From: Allobosea sp. Leaf344
GTDB lineage: Bacteria; Pseudomonadota; Alphaproteobacteria; Rhizobiales; Beijerinckiaceae
DNA length: 64,000 bases
Assembly: GCF_001426225.1 (NCBI RefSeq)
Contig: NZ_LMRT01000014.1
Coordinates: 730,318-794,317 of the forward strand
Reading direction: 5' to 3'
Made by a program: the position numbers and the translations under genes. Of the stretch, positions 2,549-15,019 are shown in pieces. Position 1 is the first letter of the stretch. Each line of letters starts with the position of its first letter. The notes beneath the pieces are model-generated. The model saw only the letters and a program-made list of their open reading frames with translations. It was not told the DNA's origin and did no database searches.

Positions 2549-5500
2549 ATGCGCATCGAGCGCCGCTATACCGCAGCCGGCCAATCGCCCTATGCGGCGA
2601 TTCCGTTCCGTTCCGCCGTCAGCGAGATTCGCAATCCCGATGGCTCGATCGTCTTCCGGCTGGAGGGCATCGAGGTGCCGGAATCCTGGTCGCAGGTCGC
2701 CAGCGACGTGCTCGCGCAGAAATATTTCCGCAAGGCCGGCGTCCCGGCCAGGCTGAAGCGCGTCGAGGAGAACGACGTGCCGAGCTTCCTCTGGCGCTCG
2801 GTGCCGGACGAGGCGGCGCTGGCGGCCCTGCCCGAGGCGCAGCGCTATGTCTCCGAGATCTCCTCCAAGCAGGTCTTCGACCGGCTCGCCGGCTGCTGGA
2901 CCTATTGGGGCTGGAAGGGCGGCTATTTCACCGCGGAAGAGGATGCGCAGGCCTTCCATGACGAATTGCGCTACATGCTGGCCACGCAGCGCGTCGCGCC
3001 GAACTCGCCGCAATGGTTCAATACCGGCCTGCACTGGGCCTATGGCATCGACGGGCCGAGCCAGGGCCATTTCTACGTCGACTTCAAGACCGGCAAGCTG
3101 ACCAAGTCGAAGTCGAGCTACGAGCACCCGCAGCCGCATGCCTGCTTCATCCAGGGCGTGCAGGACGACCTCGTCAACGAGGGCGGCATCATGGATCTCT
3201 GGGTGCGCGAGGCGCGCCTGTTCAAATACGGCTCCGGCACCGGCTCGAACTTCTCGATGCTGCGCGGCGAGGGCGAGAAGCTCGCCGGCGGCGGCCGTTC
3301 CTCCGGGCTGATGTCCTTCCTGAAGATCGGCGACCGTGCGGCGGGCGCGATCAAATCCGGCGGCACCACGCGCCGCGCCGCCAAGATGGTGGTGGTCGAC
3401 GTCGATCACCCCGATATCGAGACCTATATCGAGTGGAAGGTGAAGGAGGAGCAGAAGGTCGCGGCTCTCGTCACCGGCTCGAAGGTCGTGCAGAAGCACA
3501 TGAAGGCCGTGATGAAGGCCTGCGTGAACTGCGAGGGCGATGGCGACGCCTGCTTCGACCCGGAGAAGAACCCGGCGCTGAAGCGCGAGGTCAAGCTCGC
3601 CCGCAAGGCGCTGGTCCCGGACAATTACATCAAGCGGGTCATCCAGTTCGCCCGGCAGGGCTACACCGACATCCAGTTCGACGTCTACGACACCGATTGG
3701 GATTCCGAGGCCTATCTCACCGTCTCCGGCCAGAACTCCAATAATTCGGTCTCGCTGACCGACGACTTCCTGCGGGCGGTCGAGACCGATGGCGACTGGA
3801 ACCTGGTCGGCCGCACCACGGGCAAGGTGACGAAGACGCTGAAGGCGCGCGAGCTCTGGGAAAAGATCGGCTACGCCGCCTGGGCGAGCGCCGATCCCGG
3901 CCTGCATTTCAACACGACGATGAACGATTGGCACACCTGCCCGGCCTCGGGACGCATCCGCGCCTCGAATCCGTGCTCGGAATACATGTTCCTCGACGAT
4001 ACCGCCTGCAATCTGGCCTCGGCCAACCTGCTGCAATTCTACGATCGCGAGGCCAAGGCCTTCGACGTCGCCGCCTATGAGCATCTCTGCCGGCTCTGGA
4101 CCGTGGTGCTCGAGATCTCGGTGACGATGGCGCAGTTCCCGTCGCGGGAAATCGCCGAACTCTCCTATGAATATCGCACGCTCGGCCTCGGCTACGCCAA
4201 TATCGGCGGGCTGCTGATGACCATGGGCCTCGGCTATGATTCAGACGAGGGCCGCGCTCTGGCCGGCGCGCTCACCGCCGTGATGACCGGCGTCGCCTAT
4301 GCCACCTCGGCCGAGATGGCGGCCGAGCTCGGCCCCTTCCCCGGCTACAAGAAGAACGCGAGCCACATGCTGCGCGTCATCCGCAACCACCGCACCGCCG
4401 CCCATGGCATGGCGACCGGCTATGAGGGGCTGCAGGTCACCCCGGTTCCGCTCGACCATGGCACGCTGGCCCGGCTCGGCGGCTCCTCGACCCTTCTGTC
4501 GGAGCGCGCCCGCATCGCCTGGGACAGGGCGCTGGAGCTCGGCGAGCAGCATGGCTACCGCAACGCCCAGGCGACGGTGATCGCGCCCACCGGCACGATC
4601 GGCCTGGTGATGGATTGCGACACCACCGGCATCGAGCCCGATTTCGCGCTGGTGAAGTTCAAGAAACTGGCCGGCGGCGGCTATTTCAAGATCATCAACG
4701 CGGCCGCCCCCGATGCGCTGCGCGCGCTCGGCTATCGCGAGAGCGAGATCGCCGAGATCGAGGCCTATGCGGTCGGCCACGGCTCGCTCGCCCAGGCGCC
4801 CGGCGTCAACCATGGCAGCCTGCGCGCCAAGGGTTTCACCCAGGACAAGATCGACGCGATCGAGAAGGACCTGAAGGCGGCCTTCGACATCAAGTTCGTC
4901 TTCAACAAATGGACGCTGGGCGAAGATTTCCTGCTCAACACGCTGAAGGTCCCGGCCGAGAAACTGGCCGACATGTCCTTCGAGCTGCTGCCCTTCCTCG
5001 GCTTCGGCAAGGCCGAGATCGAGGCCGCCAACGTCCATGTCTGCGGAGCGATGACGCTGGAAGGCGCGCCGCATCTGAAGCTCGAACATTACCATGTCTT
5101 CGACTGCGCCAACCCCTGCGGGCGCGTCGGCAAGCGCTACCTCTCGGTCGAGAGCCATATCCGGATGATGGCGGCCGCCCAGCCCTTCATCTCGGGGGCG
5201 ATCTCCAAGACCATCAACATGCCCAACGACGCCACCGTCGAGGATTGCAAGAGCGCCTATATGCTCTCCTGGAAGCTGGCGCTGAAGGCCAACGCCCTCT
5301 ACCGCGACGGCTCGAAACTGTCGCAGCCGCTGAATTCGGCGCTGATCAGCGACGATGACGAGGAGGAGGATGCGGTCGAGGCGCATTACCAGCAGCCGAT
5401 GACGGCCCGCGCCACCCAGGTCGCGGAGAAGATCGTCGAGCGCATCGTCGAGAAGGTGGTGCGCGAGCGCGAGAAGATGCCCGCCCGCCGCACCGGCTAC

Positions 5501-6779: not shown

Positions 6780-7039
6780 GGTGCATCCTCCTCAGGAGGC
6801 AGCATCCATCCCATCCTATCGGCTCGCGATGCTCCTGCCGCGCCTCATGGCTGGCTGATCGTTTGAGCGTCACGCCAGATGCCGCCGCGGGCCATGGCTG
6901 GGCTGGCAGAGCCGGCTATGGCGACTCGGCGCAACAAAATTGCCTCTGACCAACCCGGAGAGGTCCACTTCGTCACTTTACGCGGACGTTATGTCGAACC
7001 CCCTCAATCGACATGGCGGCCTTACGGGCATCGCCTCTA

Positions 7040-7071: not shown

Positions 7072-7158
7072 ATGATCATCGATACCCTGTTCTTCCTCGG
7101 CGGCCTTGGCCTGTTTGCGCTCGCGGGCGCCGCGGCCGCGGCCGCTGACCGGCTGTGA
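7072..7158 (+). CDS. Small (28 aa) hydrophobic leader protein at the head of the kdp operon
   Basis: The ORF begins MIIDTLFFLGGLGLFALAG and ends AAADRL: one predicted transmembrane helix with a short polar tail. GGAG lies 7 nt upstream, inside a hairpin. It ends 8 bp before kdpF, so it is probably co-transcribed. I do not recognise a named family. Its single-helix build resembles KdpF, so it could be an extra small subunit of the pump or a regulatory leader peptide. The coding call rests on the RBS, the hydrophobicity and its place in the operon. Confidence 0.55.
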   Translation: MIIDTLFFLGGLGLFALAGAAAAAADRL

Positions 7159-7166
7159 GGCGCATC

Positions 7167-7256
7167 ATGCCCCTCGACATCATCCTCGGGTTGACGGCGG
7201 CCGCGCTGCTGCTGGTCTACCTGCTCAAGGCGCTGCTGCGCCCCGAATCCTTTTGA
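7167..7256 (+). CDS. kdpF: K(+)-transporting ATPase small subunit KdpF
   Basis: A 29-aa single-helix membrane protein: MPLDIILGLTAAALL, then VYLLKALLRPESF. The pattern of a short hydrophobic helix followed by Y-L-x-x-A-L-L-R-P-E-x-F is characteristic of KdpF, which stabilises the KdpABC complex. GAGG lies upstream of the ATG. It sits 15 bp before kdpA, as in other kdpFABC operons. It is easily missed because of its size. Confidence 0.9.
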   Translation: MPLDIILGLTAAALLLVYLLKALLRPESF

Positions 7257-7271
7257 GAGGGCTCACTCCCC

Positions 7272-8963
7272 ATGACCCTCGATCTGATCCAGTTTCTGAT
7301 CTTCGCGACCCTGCTGCTGGCCCTCGCCTGGCCGCTGGGCCATTACATGGCCCGCGTCTTCACGGGGGAGGCGCAGTTCCTCGCGCCGGTCGAGAACGCG
7401 ATCCTGCGCCTGGCCGGCCAGGGCCAGCCACAGCCGCAGCGTTGGCAGACCTATATGTTCTCGCTGCTCGCCTTCAACGCGGCGGGCTTCGCCCTTCTGT
7501 TCCTGATCCTGCGCTTCCAGCACCTGCTGCCGCTCAATCCGCAGGGTTTCGACGGGCTTTCGGCACATCTTGCGTTCAACACTGCGATTTCCTTCGTCAC
7601 CAACACCAACTGGCAGTCCTATGGCGGCGAGACGACGCTCTCGCACCTCAGCCAGATGTTCGGCCTGACGACGCAGAACTTCGTCTCGGCCGCGACGGGA
7701 GCAGCGGTGGCAGCCGCCGTCGCGCGTGGCTTTGCGGCGAAGCAGACCAGGCTGCTCGGCAATTTCTGGGCGGATCTGACCCGCACCACGCTCTACATCC
7801 TGCTGCCGGCCGCGCTTGTTCTGGCCCTGGTGCTGGTCGCGCTCGGGCTGCCGCAGACGCTCGCCGGATCCTTCGAGGCCACGACCCTGGAGGGCGCGAA
7901 GCAAAGCATCGCGATCGGCCCCGTCGCTAGCCAGATCGCGATCAAACAGCTCGGCACCAATGGCGGCGGCTTCTTCAACGTCAACTCGTCCCATCCCTTC
8001 GAGAATCCCAATGCGCTGAGCAATCTGCTGACGACGATCTCGATTCTGCTGATCCCCGTCGCCTTCTGCTTCACCTATGGCCGCCTCGTCGGCGACCGGC
8101 GCCAGGGCCGCGCGCTGTTTGCCGCTATGGCGGTGCTGTTCCTCGTCGGATTTGCCGCGATCTATGGCGCGGAGCGGCTGGGCAACCCTCTTCATGCCGG
8201 CTTGGTCGACCCGGCGTCCGGCAACATGGAGGGCAAGGAGGTTCGCTTCGGGATTCTCGCCTCGTCGCTCTGGGCCGCCGCGACGACGGCGGCCTCGAAC
8301 GGCTCGGTCAACGCAATGCACGATTCCTTCACGCCGCTGGGTGGGCTCGTCGCCATGCTGAACATGCAGCTCGGCGAGGTCGTGTTCGGTGGCGTCGGCG
8401 TCGGCCTCACCGGCATGCTGCTCTTCGTCATCATCACCGTCTTCCTGGCGGGGCTGATGGTCGGCCGCACGCCGGAATATCTCGGCAAGAAGATCGAGGC
8501 GAAAGAGATCAAGCTGGCGGCGCTGACTTTGCTGGTCATGCCACTCGGCATCCTTGTCCTGGCCGCGCTCGCCATCGTCACCGGCCATGCGCAGGCGTCC
8601 GTGCAGGATGCCGGCCCGCACGGGCTCTCTGAGCTGCTCTATGCCTACACCTCGGCGACCGGCAACAATGGTTCGGCCTTCGCCGGTTTCACGGCCAACA
8701 CGCTTTGGCACAACAGCTTCCTCGGCATCGCCATGATGCTCGGCCGCTTCGGCTACATCGTCCCGATCCTCGCGATCGCCGGCAGCCTCGCCGCCAAGCG
8801 CCCCGCGGCCGAGACCGCGGGCACCTTCCCCACCCATGGGCCGCTTTTCGTCACGCTGCTGGTGGCGACGATCCTGATCGTCGGCGCGCTCACCTTCCTC
8901 CCCGTCCTCGCTCTGGGCCCGATCGCCGAACACGTGTCGATCCTGGCCGGGCAGAGCTTCTAG
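7272..8963 (+). CDS. kdpA: Potassium-transporting ATPase subunit KdpA
   Basis: 563 aa; the K+-selective channel-like subunit of the KdpFABC high-affinity pump in the inner membrane. The four filter-type repeats are recognisable around [18 protein letters not shown], the [11 protein letters not shown] segment and [10 protein letters not shown]. About ten hydrophobic segments span the protein, and the length equals the family norm. It is preceded by GAGAGGG. Eight bases separate it from kdpB. The gene looks intact and functional. Confidence 0.97.
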
Positions 8964-8971
8964 AGGTCAAC

Positions 8972-11014
8972 ATGAGCAAACATGCTCCCGCCGAGATGGG
9001 CCTGTTCTCGCCCGTCATCCTTCGGCCCGCGATCCTGCAGGCCTTCCGCAAGCTCGATCCGCGCAGCCTGGCGCGCAACCCGGTCATCTTCTCGACCGCG
9101 CTGGTCTCGGTCCTCGCCACCGGCCTCGTCATCCGCGAGGGGCTGACCGGGGGGCCGGTCTTCTGGATCGGGCTTCAGATCGCGATCTGGCTGTGGTTCA
9201 CCGTGCTCTTCGCCAACTTCGCCGAGGCGGTCGCCGAAGGCCGCGGCAAGGCGCGGGCCGATGCCTTCCGCTCGACGCGATCCTCGGCGCTCGCCAAGGT
9301 GCTGGTCGATCCCGCGAACCGCGTCGTCTACGGCACCAAGGAGGTCGAGCTCGTCGAGCCCGGCGAGGTCATCCTGATCGAGGCCGGCGACATCGTGCCG
9401 ACCGATGGCGAGATCATCGAGGGCGTCGCCTCGGTCGACGAGAGCGCCATCACCGGCGAATCCGCTCCGGTGATCCGCGAGTCAGGCGGCGACCGCTCCT
9501 CGCTCACCGGCGGCACGCGGCTGGTGTCGGATTGGCTCGTGGTGCGCGTCACGGCCCGCCAGGGCGAGACCTTCCTCGACCGCATGATCGCGCTGGTCGA
9601 AGGCGCCAAGCGCCAGAAGACGCCCAACGAGATCGCGCTCGACATCCTGCTGGCGGCGCTGACGCTGGTCTTCCTTTTCGTCGTGGTGACGCTGCCTGTC
9701 TTCGCCTCCTGGTCCGGCACGACGCTGCCTGTGATCTATCTCGCTGCGCTGTTCGTGACGCTGATCCCGACCACGATCGGTGGGCTGCTCTCGGCCATCG
9801 GCATCGCCGGCATGGACCGGTTGGTGAAGGCCAACGTCATCGCGAAATCCGGCCGCGCGGTCGAGGCGGCCGGCGATATCGACGTGCTGCTGCTCGACAA
9901 GACCGGCACGATCACCTTCGGCAACCGCATGGCCCATGCCTTCGAGCCGGCGGCGCAGGTCAGCGAGCGCGAGCTGGCCGAGGCCGCCTTCCTGGCCTCG
10001 CTGTCGGACGATACGCCGGAGGGCAAGTCGATCGTCGATCTCGCCGCCAGGCGCTTCGGCTTCGATGCCGCGGCCGGCGCCGGGGCAGTCTTCGTGCCCT
10101 TCACCGCCCAGACCCGCATGTCCGGTGTCGACCTTCCGGACGGCCGCGCCTTGCGCAAAGGTGCCTCCGACACCATGGCGAAGCTCACCGGCGGCGCGCT
10201 ACCGGTCACCGTCGAGCAGGCGGTGCGAAAGATCGCCTCCTCGGGCGGCACGCCGCTGGTGGTGGCGCGCGACAACGACGTGCTCGGCGTCGTCCATCTC
10301 AAGGACGTGGTGAAGCCCGGCATTCGCGAGCGCTTCGCGGAACTTCGCCGCATGGGCATTCGCACGGTGATGATCACCGGCGACAACCCGCTGACGGCGG
10401 CCGCCATCGCGGCCGAAGCCGGCGTCGACGATTTCCTGGCCGAGGCGACGCCGGAAGCCAAGCTCGCCCTGATCCGCAAGGAGCAGGCGGAGGGTCGCCT
10501 CGTGGCGATGTGCGGCGACGGCTCCAACGACGCGCCGGCGCTGGCGCAGGCGGATGTCGGGGTCGCCATGAATTCGGGCACGCCCGCCGCCAAGGAGGCC
10601 GGCAACCTGATCGATCTCGACAGCGACCCGACCAAGCTGATCGAGATCGTCATGGTCGGCAAGCAGCTGCTGATTTCGCGCGGCGCGTTGACGACCTTCT
10701 CGATCGCCAATGACGTAGCGAAGTATTTCGCGATCCTGCCGGCGCTGTTCATCACCGCCTATCCGGGGCTCGCGGTGCTCGATGTGATGGGGTTGGGCAG
10801 CCCGCAATCGGCGATCCTGTCCGCGATCATCTTCAACGCGCTCGTCATTATCGCGCTGATCCCGATCGCGCTGAAGGGCGTGCGCTACGCCCCGGCTTCG
10901 GCGGCCTCGCTGCTCGGGCGCAACCTGCTCGTCTATGGGCTGGGCGGGCTGATCGTTCCCTTCATCGGCATCAAGGCGATCGACCTGATCGTCGATCTGC
11001 TGCACCTCGCCTGA
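8972..11014 (+). CDS. kdpB: Potassium-transporting P-type ATPase subunit KdpB
   Basis: 680 aa; the ATP-hydrolysing subunit of the Kdp pump. The phosphorylation motif DKTGTIT has its aspartate at residue 309. Also present are the TGES loop (DESAITGES), the nucleotide-binding KGAS region, the hinge motif [10 protein letters not shown] and [16 protein letters not shown]. The chosen ATG ([10 protein letters not shown]) follows AGAGGTC; a long in-frame extension upstream overlaps kdpA and is not real. All catalytic motifs are intact. Confidence 0.97.
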
Positions 11015-11023
11015 GGAGATTTC

Positions 11024-11614
11024 ATGACCAATCATCTGCGTCCCTCGCTCGCCCTGCTCGGTGTCTTCAGTCTGCTGACCGGCGCGGCCTATCCGCTGGC
11101 CGTCACCGGCGTCGCCCAGGCCGTGTTCCCGGCCAACGCCAATGGCTCGCCGGTGATGAAGGACGGCGCCGTCATCGGCTCGGTGCTGATCGGCCAGTCC
11201 TTCACTTCGGATCGGTACTTCCAGCGCCGCCCCTCGGCGACCTCGGCAACCGATCCGCAGGACCCATCGAAGCCGGTGGAGAGCCCCTACAATGCTGCGA
11301 ACTCGACCGGCTCGAATCTCGGACCAAGCTCTGCGGCGCTGGTGGCCGCGATCAAGGAGCGTGTCGAAGCGCTCGGTGGCGGGCAGCAGCCGGCCGATCT
11401 CGTGACGGCATCAGGCTCAGGACTCGATCCGCACATCTCGCCGGCGGCCGCCCTGATCCAGATCGGTCGCGTCGCCTCGGCGCGCGGCCTCGCCGAGGAT
11501 CGTCTCCGGCAACTGGTGCGGGCGCAGGTCGAGCCGCCGCTGCTCGGCGTCCTCGGAGAGCCCCGCGTCAACGTCCTGGCGCTCAATCTCGCGCTCGACA
11601 GGCTGGCGCGCTGA
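11024..11614 (+). CDS. kdpC: Potassium-transporting ATPase subunit KdpC
   Basis: 196 aa; the periplasmic subunit, anchored by one N-terminal helix, that supports K+ transfer in KdpFABC. Family blocks seen are the N-terminal LLTGAAYPLAVTG, IGQSFTSDRYFQRRPS, YNAANSTGSNLGPSS, ASGSGLDPHISPAAA and GRVASARGL, near the C-terminus GEPRVNVLALNLALD. GAGGAG precedes the ATG. It is separated from kdpB by 9 bp and from the kdpDE gene by 18 bp. Confidence 0.96.
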   Translation: MTNHLRPSLALLGVFSLLTGAAYPLAVTGVAQAVFPANANGSPVMKDGAVIGSVLIGQSFTSDRYFQRRPSATSATDPQDPSKPVESPYNAANSTGSNLGPSSAALVAAIKERVEALGGGQQPADLVTASGSGLDPHISPAAALIQIGRVASARGLAEDRLRQLVRAQVEPPLLGVLGEPRVNVLALNLALDRLAR

Positions 11615-11632: not shown

Positions 11633-14600
11633 ATGCCGAGCGCGCCTGACGAGAGACCGACGCCCGAATCCTTCCTCGCCGAGGCGCGCGGCGAGGTCGA
11701 AAGGAACGTCGGTCGGCTCAAGATCTTCCTCGGTGCCTCCCCCGGCGTCGGCAAGACCTTCGCGATGATCGAGGAGGCTCGCATGCGGCTGCGCGCGGGC
11801 CTCGACGTCGTGGTGGCGCTGGTCGAGACCCATGGCCGCGCAGAGACCGCCGCTCTGCTCCATGGCCTGGAGCAGTTGCCGCGCCGGCCGGTCGTCTATC
11901 GCGAGCAGGATCTCAGCGAACTCGATGTCGATGCTCTGCTCGCGCGGCGGCCTGCGATCGCGCTGATCGACGAACTCGCTCACACCAACGCGCCGGGCTC
12001 GCGCCACCCCAAGCGCTGGCAGGATGTTGTCGAGGTGCTGGACGCCGGCATCGACGTCGTCACCACGCTGAACATCCAGCACGTCGAGAGCCTCAACGAT
12101 ATCGTCGCCCGGATCACGGGCGTGCGCGTGCAGGAGACGGTGCCCGATCACATCCTGCAGCGGGCGGACGCGATCGAGCTGATTGATTTGCCGCCCGAAG
12201 AGCTGATCAAGCGCCTGCAGGACGGCAAGGTCTATGTGCCGGAGCAGATCGGTCGGGCGCTCGATAATTTCTTCGGCAAGGGCAAGCTCACGGCGCTGCG
12301 CGAACTCGCCTTGCGCACGGCCGCCAGCCGGGTCGACGCCGAGATGCTGGCATGGATGCAGGACCATGCCGTCAAGGGCCCCTGGCCGGCCGAGGAGCGC
12401 CTGCTGGTGTGTATCAACGAGGCGCCTTCCGCGCGCAGCCTGGTGCGGGCCGGGAAGCGCATGGCCGATCGCGCGCGCCTGCCCTGGATCGTCGCGACCG
12501 TGACGACGCCGCGTCATGAAGCGATGCCGGCCGAGACCCGTGCCGTCACCACCGAGGCCTTGCGGCTTGCGGAAACCCTCGGCGCCGAGTCGGTGGTACT
12601 GCGGGCGGAGACGGATGCCGCCGGCGAAATCCTACGCTATGCCCGACAGCGCAATGTCTCGCGTCTGGTGATCGGGCGCCCACGCTCGCAGCGCTCCTGG
12701 TGGCAGCGGCTGGCCGGGGCCTTCCGCGAACCCGTCGCGGACCGCCTGCTCGACGACGCCACCGATTTCGAGATCACGGTCGTGACGCCGCATGCCCGGA
12801 TCGAGCGGCGCAAGGCTGTCGCCGGGCCTTGGCTGCACGGTCCCTGGCAGGGCTACGCCACGGCCTTCGGCGCGATCGCGCTGGCGAGCCTGCTGGCCTT
12901 GCCGATCTCGATCTGGGATGCCGTGCCGGGCGGCGCGATCTCGGCGATCTATCTCATCAGCGTTCTGATGGTCGGCGCCCGCTGGGGGCTCGGTCCTTCG
13001 CTGGCGGCGGGGGCACTTGGCTCGCTGGCCTACAACTTCTTCTACACGCCGCCCTATTACTCGCTGAATATCAGCCGATCCGAAGACATCATTTCGATCG
13101 CGGTCTATCTCCTCGGCGCAATGTTCACCGGCACGCTGGCCGGGCGCCTCAAGGCCCAGGTCGAGGCGATGCGTGCCGCCCAGCGCCGCACCGAAACCCT
13201 CTATGATTTCGCCCGCAAGATCGCCACGGCTACCGGAACGGACGATGTGCTCTGGGCGGCGGCCTTCCACATCGCGGCGACCCTCGACTGCCGGTCGCTG
13301 ATCCTGATGCCCGATGTGACGGGCGCGCTGCAGCAGGTGCAGGGCCACCCTACGATCGAGGATCTCGATGCCCGTGCCGAGGGCGCCGCGCGGTGGGCGT
13401 TCGAGAAGAACGAACCGGCCGGAGCGGGCACGGCGACGCTGCCGATGGCCGAATGGCTGTTCGTCCCTCTCGCGACAGCCAGCAGCATTCTCGGCGTCAT
13501 CGGCGTGCGCTTCCGCGACCGGCAGCGCGGGCTCGACCCGGAGACGCGGCGTCTGCTGCTGGCCGTCGAGGATCAGGTCGCCGTCGCGGTTGAGCGGACG
13601 CGGCTCGCCGGAGAACTGGCGAATGCCCGTGTTTCGGCGGAGGGTGAGAAGTTGCGCGGGGCGCTGCTCAATTCGGTGAGCCACGATCTGCGGACGCCGC
13701 TGGTCACCGTGATCGGCGCCGTCTCGAGCCTCGCCGAGAGCGACGGCGTGCTCGGCGCCGCCGACCGGCGAGCCTTGACGGTGACGGCGCTCGACGAGGC
13801 ACGTCGCCTCGACCGCTATGTTCAGAACCTGCTCGACATGACGCGGCTCGGCCATGGCGCGCTCGCACCCAAGCGCGCGGCGGTCGATTTGCGCGAGATC
13901 CTCGGCGTGGTGCGAAACGATCTCGAGCGCGTGCTCGCGAGCCATGGCCTCGTCATCGACACACCGCGCGACCTGCCGCCGCTCCATGTCGACCCGGTGC
14001 TGACAGGGCAGGCCATCGCCAACATCGTCGAGAACGCCGCGAAATACGCGCCGGTCGGCACGTCGATCACGATCACGGCCCGCGCCGATGGCGACATGGC
14101 CGAGATCGCCGTGACCGATGAGGGGCCCGGCATCCCCGAGGCCGAGCGGGAGCGCGTCTTCGATCTGTTCCACCGCGTCGCGGAAGGCGATGCCAGGCCG
14201 GCCGGCACGGGTCTGGGGCTTTCCATCGTGCGGGGGCTGGTCGAGGCGCATGGCGGCACGGCCCGGGCCGAAGCCGGGCCAGGTGGACGCGGCGCGGCGA
14301 TCGTGATCAGGCTGCCCGTCGCCCCCGCCTGCATTCTGGTGATCGACGACGAGGCGCCGATCCGGCGCTTCCTCGCCATCGTGCTCGGCGCCGGCGGCTT
14401 CGAGATGCTGGAGGCCGACCGCGGGCGACTGGGAATCGAGCGCGCCGCGACCCTGGCGCCCGACGCCGTGCTGCTCGATCTCGGCCTGCCCGATATGGAC
14501 GGCAAGGCGGTGATCGAGGCGATCCGTGAATGGTCCGGCGTGCCGATCCTGGTCCTCTCCGTGCGCGATGCAGAGACCGAAAAGATCGCCGCGCTCGATG

Positions 14601-15019
14601 CCGGCGCGGACGACTACGTCACCAAGCCGTTCGCGACCGGTGAACTGCTGGCCAGGCTGCGAGCCCTGCTGCGCAGCCGCCGCGACCGCGCCGCCGAGCC
14701 GGCAGAGATCCGTATCGGCGGGCTCGCAATCGACCTGGCGAGCCGTTCGGTCGTCGTCGATGGCGCGGCCGTCAAGCTGACGCGCAAAGAATTCGATGTC
14801 ATCGCATTGCTGGCCCGCAACGCCGGCAAGCTGGTGGGACACAAGCAGTTGCTGACGACGATCTGGGGACCGGCCCATGCGGCCGACACCCATTACCTGC
14901 GGATCGCGGTGGGCCACATCCGCGAGAAAATCGGCGACGACGCGGCCGATCCCCGCTTCATCGTCACCGAGCCCGGCGTTGGATATCGGCTCGTCGATGC
15001 CTGTAACCCGATCAATTGA
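11633..15019 (+). CDS. kdpDE: Fused KdpD sensor histidine kinase - KdpE response regulator (single polypeptide)
   Basis: 1128 aa. Residues 1 to about 894 are a complete KdpD: Walker-like GASPGVGKT (34-42), DELAHTNAPGSRHPKRWQD, a USP-like domain, four membrane segments (about 400-500), a GAF-like region, the HisKA motif SHDLRTPL with His684, and ATPase boxes ENAAKYAP, DEGPGIP and GTGLGLSIV. Without any stop the chain passes through RLPVAPAC into a complete KdpE from ILVIDDE (residue 901): phospho-acceptor Asp949 in LLDLGLPDMDG, the receiver lysine in DDYVTKPF, and an OmpR-type winged helix (LTRKEFDVIALLARN, THYLRIAVGHIREKIG, GVGYRLVD). The pair is normally encoded by two genes; the total length is close to the sum of both. 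It senses low K+ or turgor and drives kdpFABC. Independent KdpE synthesis from an internal GTG (14303 or 14339) cannot be excluded. Confidence 0.93.
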   Translation: MPSAPDERPTPESFLAEARGEVERNVGRLKIFLGASPGVGKTFAMIEEARMRLRAGLDVVVALVETHGRAETAALLHGLEQLPRRPVVYREQDLSELDVDALLARRPAIALIDELAHTNAPGSRHPKRWQDVVEVLDAGIDVVTTLNIQHVESLNDIVARITGVRVQETVPDHILQRADAIELIDLPPEELIKRLQDGKVYVPEQIGRALDNFFGKGKLTALRELALRTAASRVDAEMLAWMQDHAVKGPWPAEERLLVCINEAPSARSLVRAGKRMADRARLPWIVATVTTPRHEAMPAETRAVTTEALRLAETLGAESVVLRAETDAAGEILRYARQRNVSRLVIGRPRSQRSWWQRLAGAFREPVADRLLDDATDFEITVVTPHARIERRKAVAGPWLHGPWQGYATAFGAIALASLLALPISIWDAVPGGAISAIYLISVLMVGARWGLGPSLAAGALGSLAYNFFYTPPYYSLNISRSEDIISIAVYLLGAMFTGTLAGRLKAQVEAMRAAQRRTETLYDFARKIATATGTDDVLWAAAFHIAATLDCRSLILMPDVTGALQQVQGHPTIEDLDARAEGAARWAFEKNEPAGAGTATLPMAEWLFVPLATASSILGVIGVRFRDRQRGLDPETRRLLLAVEDQVAVAVERTRLAGELANARVSAEGEKLRGALLNSVSHDLRTPLVTVIGAVSSLAESDGVLGAADRRALTVTALDEARRLDRYVQNLLDMTRLGHGALAPKRAAVDLREILGVVRNDLERVLASHGLVIDTPRDLPPLHVDPVLTGQAIANIVENAAKYAPVGTSITITARADGDMAEIAVTDEGPGIPEAERERVFDLFHRVAEGDARPAGTGLGLSIVRGLVEAHGGTARAEAGPGGRGAAIVIRLPVAPACILVIDDEAPIRRFLAIVLGAGGFEMLEADRGRLGIERAATLAPDAVLLDLGLPDMDGKAVIEAIREWSGVPILVLSVRDAETEKIAALDAGADDYVTKPFATGELLARLRALLRSRRDRAAEPAEIRIGGLAIDLASRSVVVDGAAVKLTRKEFDVIALLARNAGKLVGHKQLLTTIWGPAHAADTHYLRIAVGHIREKIGDDAADPRFIVTEPGVGYRLVDACNPIN

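Follow-up and report, generated by a model that had tools for sequence, protein, structure and literature searches.

A single reading frame joining kdpD and kdpE in Allobosea sp. Leaf344, with a candidate origin in a 38-bp deletion

The potassium-responsive Kdp system of Escherichia coli is built from two proteins: at low K+, KdpD autophosphorylates and phosphorylates KdpE, which dimerises and activates kdpFABC; at high K+, KdpD acts as a phosphatase, and its N-terminal domain lets it phosphorylate KdpB on serine (PMC11018627). In a survey of Azospirillum kdpD and kdpE are likewise given as separate genes (PMC4618731). That paired sensor and regulator genes can fuse is well recognised (PMC3018481, PMC4558063), and a survey of hybrid transmembrane transcription regulators (TTRs) suggests that these are recent and reports no conservation of them within a genus, class or phylum (PMC10269533). 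Here we describe a stretch of 64,000 nucleotides of Allobosea sp. Leaf344 (contig NZ_LMRT01000014.1 of assembly GCF_001426225.1; the window) in which kdpD and kdpE form one open reading frame, as an earlier note on this DNA had proposed.

The fused frame and its domains

The frame runs from 11633 to 15019 on the forward strand, from an ATG to a TGA, and encodes 1128 amino acids (aa) without an internal stop. Pfam matches over the cut-off follow one another in the order KdpD, DUF4118, GAF_3 (residues 537-655), HisKA (675-742), HATPase_c (788-897), Response_reg and Trans_reg_C (other ranges in Table 1), with a Usp match at residues 256-373 below the cut-off; transmembrane helices are taken from the DUF4118 match. 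The open frame and the domain order bear out the claim that a single polypeptide carries the domains of both proteins. The two phospho-acceptors lie where the earlier note placed them, at His684 and Asp949, its coordinates being correct, and the Walker-A-like motif (residues 34-42) and Lys998 are found as well. The N and G boxes and the acidic pair of the receiver are present too.

Residues 1-896 are orthologous to kdpD and residues 900-1128 to kdpE (93% and 91% aa identity to genome G009, taken as the sister of the window's genome), so this is not a chance open frame. As KdpD, the first part has the KdpD N-terminal domain, DUF4118, HisKA and HATPase_c in order; as KdpE, the second has a receiver with its phospho-acceptor Asp together with an OmpR-type winged helix, and matches the solved KdpE structure 4kny over nearly the full length. 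The gene is located with kdpFABC, as in a KdpDE system, from which it departs by holding sensor and regulator in one frame; by Pfam order, one chain unites a membrane segment and a kinase with a receiver and a DNA-binding domain, as in a hybrid two-component protein or hybrid TTR. The NCBIfam equivalog models fall short of their cut-offs, PRK10490 (KdpD, matching residues 6-898) with 719.7 bits against 1123 and PRK10529 (KdpE) with 224.4 against 325; both were scored on the fusion alone, so that the shortfall does not single it out. Both partners had been called complete, which goes a little too far: relative to G009 KdpD is without its last 5 residues and its stop, and KdpE without its first 8.

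A 38-bp loss at the junction

When 67 genomes of the genus (Bosea) were searched with the 161-bp junction, 57 gave some match. Besides the window's own genome (G000, contig 13), seven match over the full length of the junction, each with 199 bases against 161, a difference of 38. Alignment with five of these seven orthologues gives a single gap, clean on either side; six of the seven are in register in the junction survey and the seventh, G841, was read directly. In the close relatives kdpD and kdpE overlap as ATGA, the TGA being the kdpD stop and the ATG the kdpE start. Overlapping genes with identical bases in close relatives had been named as an observation that would speak against a fusion; the overlap is there, but with 38 extra bases. 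By comparison with G009, the missing 38 bp contain the last five KdpD codons, the stop and the first eight KdpE codons; their loss, which took the kdpD stop and the kdpE start, joins the two genes in frame. On these alignments the fusion is the derived state, and we think that one deletion made it.

At the ends of the missing stretch G009 has near-identical 10-base repeats, CCTGCCTGCA and CCCGCCCGCA (an imperfect repeat, recognised by eye), while in G841 CCCGCCTGCA and CCCGCCCGCA lie exactly 38 bases apart, the left copy being identical to the scar in the window. A repeat finder returned no repeat family at the junctions of G009 and L037. Replication slippage would give such a 38-bp spacing between near-repeats with one copy left, and slipped mispairing at replication would be the simplest origin of the deletion, which is itself very likely real.

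The fusion is the only one in our survey: of 116 distinct kdpD/kdpE-type junctions, the window's is fused, and the other 115 agree with the view that known Kdp systems are two proteins. ATGA stands at the kdpD stop in 81 of the 116, and the others are separate in other ways, including one odd case (G121). The junctions come from 144 fetched loci, 28 of which did not enter the count: 20 were duplicates, 5 had no kdpD/kdpE pair, 2 lacked the KdpD C-terminus and 1 was too short. The counted junctions take in KdpD-like pairs that lack the N-terminal sensor, a second pair in the window's genome for instance, and are no random sample, the places that most resembled fusions being among them. In overlapping surveys of 61, 297, 249 and 289 genomes, every KdpD place whose open frame exceeds 1100 aa and whose match is free of stops was read at its junction; few of the places with shorter frames, which cannot hold both proteins, were read singly. 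No second KdpD-KdpE fusion was found in the sampled Proteobacteria and 51 loci of named records, which says nothing of all nature. Among plasmids, kdpD and kdpE are in two pieces in all 25 matches listed of 390 matching records.

Several candidates were read and rejected. Open frames above 1100 had raised the suspicion of a fusion in G002 and G046 and in genomes of the order survey (G106, G121, G142, G157, G186, G218, G234, G248, G254), of the phylum survey (G372, G487) and of the class survey (G580, G585, G699, G714, G792). In all of these but G121 a stop and a separate kdpE stand at the junction, and separate genes were also found in G403, G445, G461 and G666, which have a stop inside the match. 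In G121 the kdpD frame continues out of frame beside kdpE and the genes are not fused; the KdpD match ends near residue 874 (L099, about 3278-4128 on the kdp strand), by a frameshift or a sequencing error. A Xanthobacter metagenome-assembled genome (MAG; L086, 4001-4582) has KdpD residue 802 joined in frame to KdpE residue 54, with both domains broken, probably by a deletion or a MAG error, and was left out of the 116, as were G527, G488 and G654, in whose fetched sequence no kdpE match adjoins kdpD. Elsewhere, genus g55 (L094, L095, L096) has kdpD and kdpE in a shared frame, parted by a stop and about 100 bp, and the spacer of L094 and L096 holds an inverted repeat, seen by eye. In L045 (Phreatobacter) and L050 the match to the fusion protein spans 4863 bp against about 3400, likely through a further match downstream; there kdpE starts 26 bp past the kdpD stop.

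Can the fused protein regulate kdp?

The product would be a single membrane-bound hybrid sensor-regulator. Low K+ would be sensed by the KdpD part, His684 would be autophosphorylated in the dimer, and the phosphate would pass to Asp949 on a receiver attached to the same dimer; the two tethered winged-helix domains might then bind the tandem site at 6977-6993 and switch kdpFABC on. All signalling steps would thereby lie inside one membrane dimer, at 1:1 and without diffusion. Two expectations of the earlier note fit such a chain: its DNA-binding output would be tethered to a membrane sensor, and phosphotransfer within the dimer would be a natural consequence. With the receiver only three residues behind the ATPase domain, transfer would probably be confined to a single geometry, in cis or in trans, and the two-protein system may be gated differently. 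The argument from stoichiometry is drawn solely from the gene structure; a search of PMC5458449 for copy numbers of the two proteins gave none. Capture of the promoter at the membrane, raised as a difficulty, is an issue general to hybrid two-component systems (HTCS) and other transmembrane regulators, and on its own does not argue against function (PMC11253607, PMC10269533). The HTCS of Bacteroides carry out these steps in one chain; for them it has been argued that the DNA-binding domains are held together by the kinase dimer regardless of stimulus, so that inhibition must come from interdomain contacts (PMC11253607).

The join itself is tight. In an AlphaFold2 model of residues 650-1128 (alignment of 53 rows, with kinase and regulator relatives unpaired), the mean predicted local distance difference test score (pLDDT) is 90.8 and the predicted template modelling score (pTM) 0.74. 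Residue 896 closes the final strand of the ATPase domain and residue 900 opens receiver beta-1, each within a block of pLDDT 96-98; the stretch from 896 to 900 could span about 14 Å. In Foldseek the halves of the model find kinase and KdpE structures separately, and a solved complex, 6lgq, pairs a chain named KdpD (C) with a KdpE-like regulator (D). The window's genome has 14 proteins, the fusion included, in which a receiver comes after HATPase_c in the same frame; between these Pfam matches the fusion has 3 residues and the other 13 hybrid kinases have 22, 23, 23, 24, 25, 25, 26, 26, 26, 30, 53, 155 and 304. Among the 14, the fusion alone has a Trans_reg_C match in its frame. In a working hybrid this would be a tighter natural join of ATPase domain and receiver than any we know of.

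A candidate target and the record of selection both speak to function. The pattern TTTACGNNNNNNTTAYG has a single match in the window, upstream of kdpF, and none in 100 shuffles, with one match in each of L031-L034; of these, L033 and L034 alone count as independent, the window, L031 and L032 having supplied the pattern. In E. coli the half-sites bound by KdpE are TTTATA and TTTACA, 5 bp apart (PMC3264566), and the putative site of the window has the same 11-bp period. Changes were polarised with four outgroups, at least three of them agreeing: in the KdpD part the window branch has 38 non-synonymous against 101 synonymous changes (ratio of non-synonymous to synonymous change, pN/pS, 0.138) and the G009 branch 22 against 73 (0.111); for the KdpE part the counts are 8 against 35 (0.084) on the window branch and 11 against 10 (0.402) on the G009 branch. 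Two outgroups give the window branch 0.138 for the KdpD part and 0.092 for the KdpE part, as against 0.128 for kdpA, 0.055 for kdpB and 0.465 for kdpC. By these ratios both halves are under purifying selection on the window branch, and neither looks decayed.

Other observations weigh against a working hybrid. With 3 residues where the 13 other hybrids have at least 22, the receiver may not reach His684. The AlphaFold2 model covers part of the protein, as a monomer, and the placement of its domains relative to each other is a prediction (pTM 0.74); matched by Foldseek over its whole chain to ShkA (6qrj), a hybrid kinase of solved structure, it fits poorly in domain arrangement (root-mean-square deviation 17.5). 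No exact match to TTTACGNNNNNNTTAYG is present in L035 and L036, whose 4850 and 4728 bases upstream of kdpD should about reach the promoter region. The selection test spans the whole branch, on which the deletion's date is not fixed, so that a very recent fusion would look alike and purifying selection is no proof of function after the fusion; the KdpE figures are, moreover, less sure because G009 was taken as the sister, while the KdpE part (14333-15016, forward strand) is nearer L037 (94.8% aa identity) than G009 (90.8%) and the KdpD part is nearest G009 (92.9%), for which recombination within the operon or uneven rates are possible reasons. Finally, the fusion is known from one assembled genome of a single strain. 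As the inhibition problem argued for HTCS would hold here too, and the linker is short, we put the chances that the fused protein still regulates kdp, as a natural hybrid two-component Kdp regulator, at about even. The fuller proposal, a working KdpD-KdpE hybrid from one 38-bp slippage event, with sensing, phosphotransfer and promoter binding in one membrane complex, we regard as tentative and on the unlikely side.

Loss of regulation is a serious rival to the working hybrid, and one to which we give appreciable weight, though less than an even chance. Here the fusion would be a recent mutation whose tight join either blocks phosphotransfer, leaving kdp off, or forces the DNA-binding domains together, leaving kdp on, and the frame would have been kept through youth or because the KdpB-inhibiting N-terminal serine kinase of KdpD is still useful. 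The 3-residue spacing and the occurrence in one genome both favour it, and a second KdpD-like/KdpE-like pair (G000:C13:117712-119881) might cover for the loss. It also agrees with the finding that E. coli KdpD inhibits the pump without need of its DHp and CA domains (PMC11018627) and with the argument that tethering to a kinase dimer holds the DNA-binding domains of HTCS close independent of stimulus (PMC11253607). On the other hand, neither half has a stop, a frameshift or an excess of non-synonymous change, a KdpE-like site is present and kdpABC is intact.

That the product is split in practice, as the earlier note had also suggested, is improbable. Separate KdpE could come from internal initiation near the junction, for which there are in-frame GTG codons at 14303 and 14339, or from proteolysis at the linker. 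However, the 20 bases upstream of either GTG hold no ribosome-binding site recognisable by eye; GTG 14303 (residue 891) falls in the final strand of the ATPase domain and GTG 14339 (residue 903) in receiver strand beta-1; the native kdpE start and the stop-start overlap went with the 38 bp; and a 3-residue linker between two confidently predicted strands would be a poor protease target. An assembly or sequencing artefact, though the genome is a draft of 15 contigs and near-repeats flank the missing stretch, is more improbable still: the repeat has only 10 bases, well below usual assembly k-mers, which are much longer, the loss is a clean 38 bp with both domains still in frame, kdpABC has no other disruption, and genome completeness is 100 with contamination 0.05.

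Were the working hybrid true, a diffusible two-component system would have turned, naturally and in one step, into a transcription factor tethered to the membrane. The rise of hybrid kinases and of membrane-tethered transcription factors is usually inferred from old, diverged families, whereas here a single defined deletion at the junction separates the state before (separate overlapping genes in the seven close Bosea orthologues) from the state after, which makes the effects of tethering on stoichiometry, specificity and promoter access directly testable. The stop-start overlap, ATGA at 81 of 116 junctions, suggests that such pairs sit one small deletion away from fusion.

The kdp operon and comparison with known systems

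Upstream of the fusion gene lie the genes of the pump (Table 1), with kdpA, kdpB and kdpC free of gaps and stops. The pN/pS of kdpC is rather high against kdpA and kdpB, from few changes (13 non-synonymous and 11 synonymous). Directly upstream of kdpF is an ORF for 28 hydrophobic residues (7072-7158, forward strand), with a similar ORF in the same place in G009, G010 and G027; it may encode another small membrane peptide belonging to the kdp operon of Bosea. Elsewhere in the genome, the second KdpD-like/KdpE-like pair (L121, 2710-4882) consists of separate genes without the N-terminal KdpD sensor domain and adjoins a transporter gene (MFS-like by eye) on the opposite strand; similar pairs are present in several other Bosea genomes.

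Table 1. Features of the kdp locus, in positions of the window
Feature	Position	Strand	Basis and remarks
Putative KdpE tandem half-sites TTTACG-N5-GTTATG	6977..6993	+	upstream of kdpF, 11-bp period
kdpF	7167..7256	+	29 aa, by eye; conserved in G009, G010, G027
kdpA	7272..8963	+	563 aa, intact
kdpB	8972..11014	+	680 aa, intact
kdpC	11024..11614	+	196 aa, intact
kdpDE fusion gene	11633..15019	+	1128 aa, reading of the open frame and Pfam
KdpD N-terminal domain	11711..12334	+	residues 27-234, Pfam; Walker-A-like GASPGVGKT at residues 34-42
DUF4118 membrane domain	12854..13174	+	residues 408-514, Pfam
HisKA + HATPase_c	13655..14323	+	residues 675-897; phospho-acceptor His684 at 13682-13684
Deletion scar, retained single 10-base repeat copy CCCGCCTGCA	14324..14333	+	comparison with close relatives
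KdpE receiver	14333..14659	+	residues 901-1009; phospho-acceptor Asp949 at 14477-14479
KdpE winged-helix DNA-binding domain	14765..14992	+	residues 1045-1120, Pfam

Membrane-tethered fusions of kinase, receiver and DNA-binding domain are already known, and the KdpD-KdpE version was not found in the literature searched: no report of it appeared, by title or start of abstract, among the open-access (PMC) articles listed, subscription journals being outside the search, and no such member is named among the hybrid TTRs in the parts of PMC10269533 consulted. The definition of hybrid TTRs given there, a membrane protein with DNA-binding and two-component domains, fits the fusion. The HTCS of Bacteroides, like the fusion, hold a membrane histidine kinase, a receiver and a DNA-binding domain in one chain (PMC11253607). 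They are an expanded family, whereas the fusion is a single derived event. HTCS have AraC-type output and periplasmic Y_Y_Y sensors; the fusion, unlike them, combines an OmpR-type winged helix with KdpD input, its output being Trans_reg_C with no Y_Y_Y among the Pfam matches, and thus lies outside HTCS in the narrow sense. From the 13 hybrid kinases of its own genome, with 22 to 304 residues between ATPase domain and receiver and no Trans_reg_C, it differs by its 3 residues and its Trans_reg_C. KdpD and KdpE of the E. coli type share with the fusion locus their domains and the order of these, the kdpFABC operon and the kind of tandem site upstream; they are two proteins where the fusion is one, which lacks 13 residues of the G009 arrangement along with the stop and the start.

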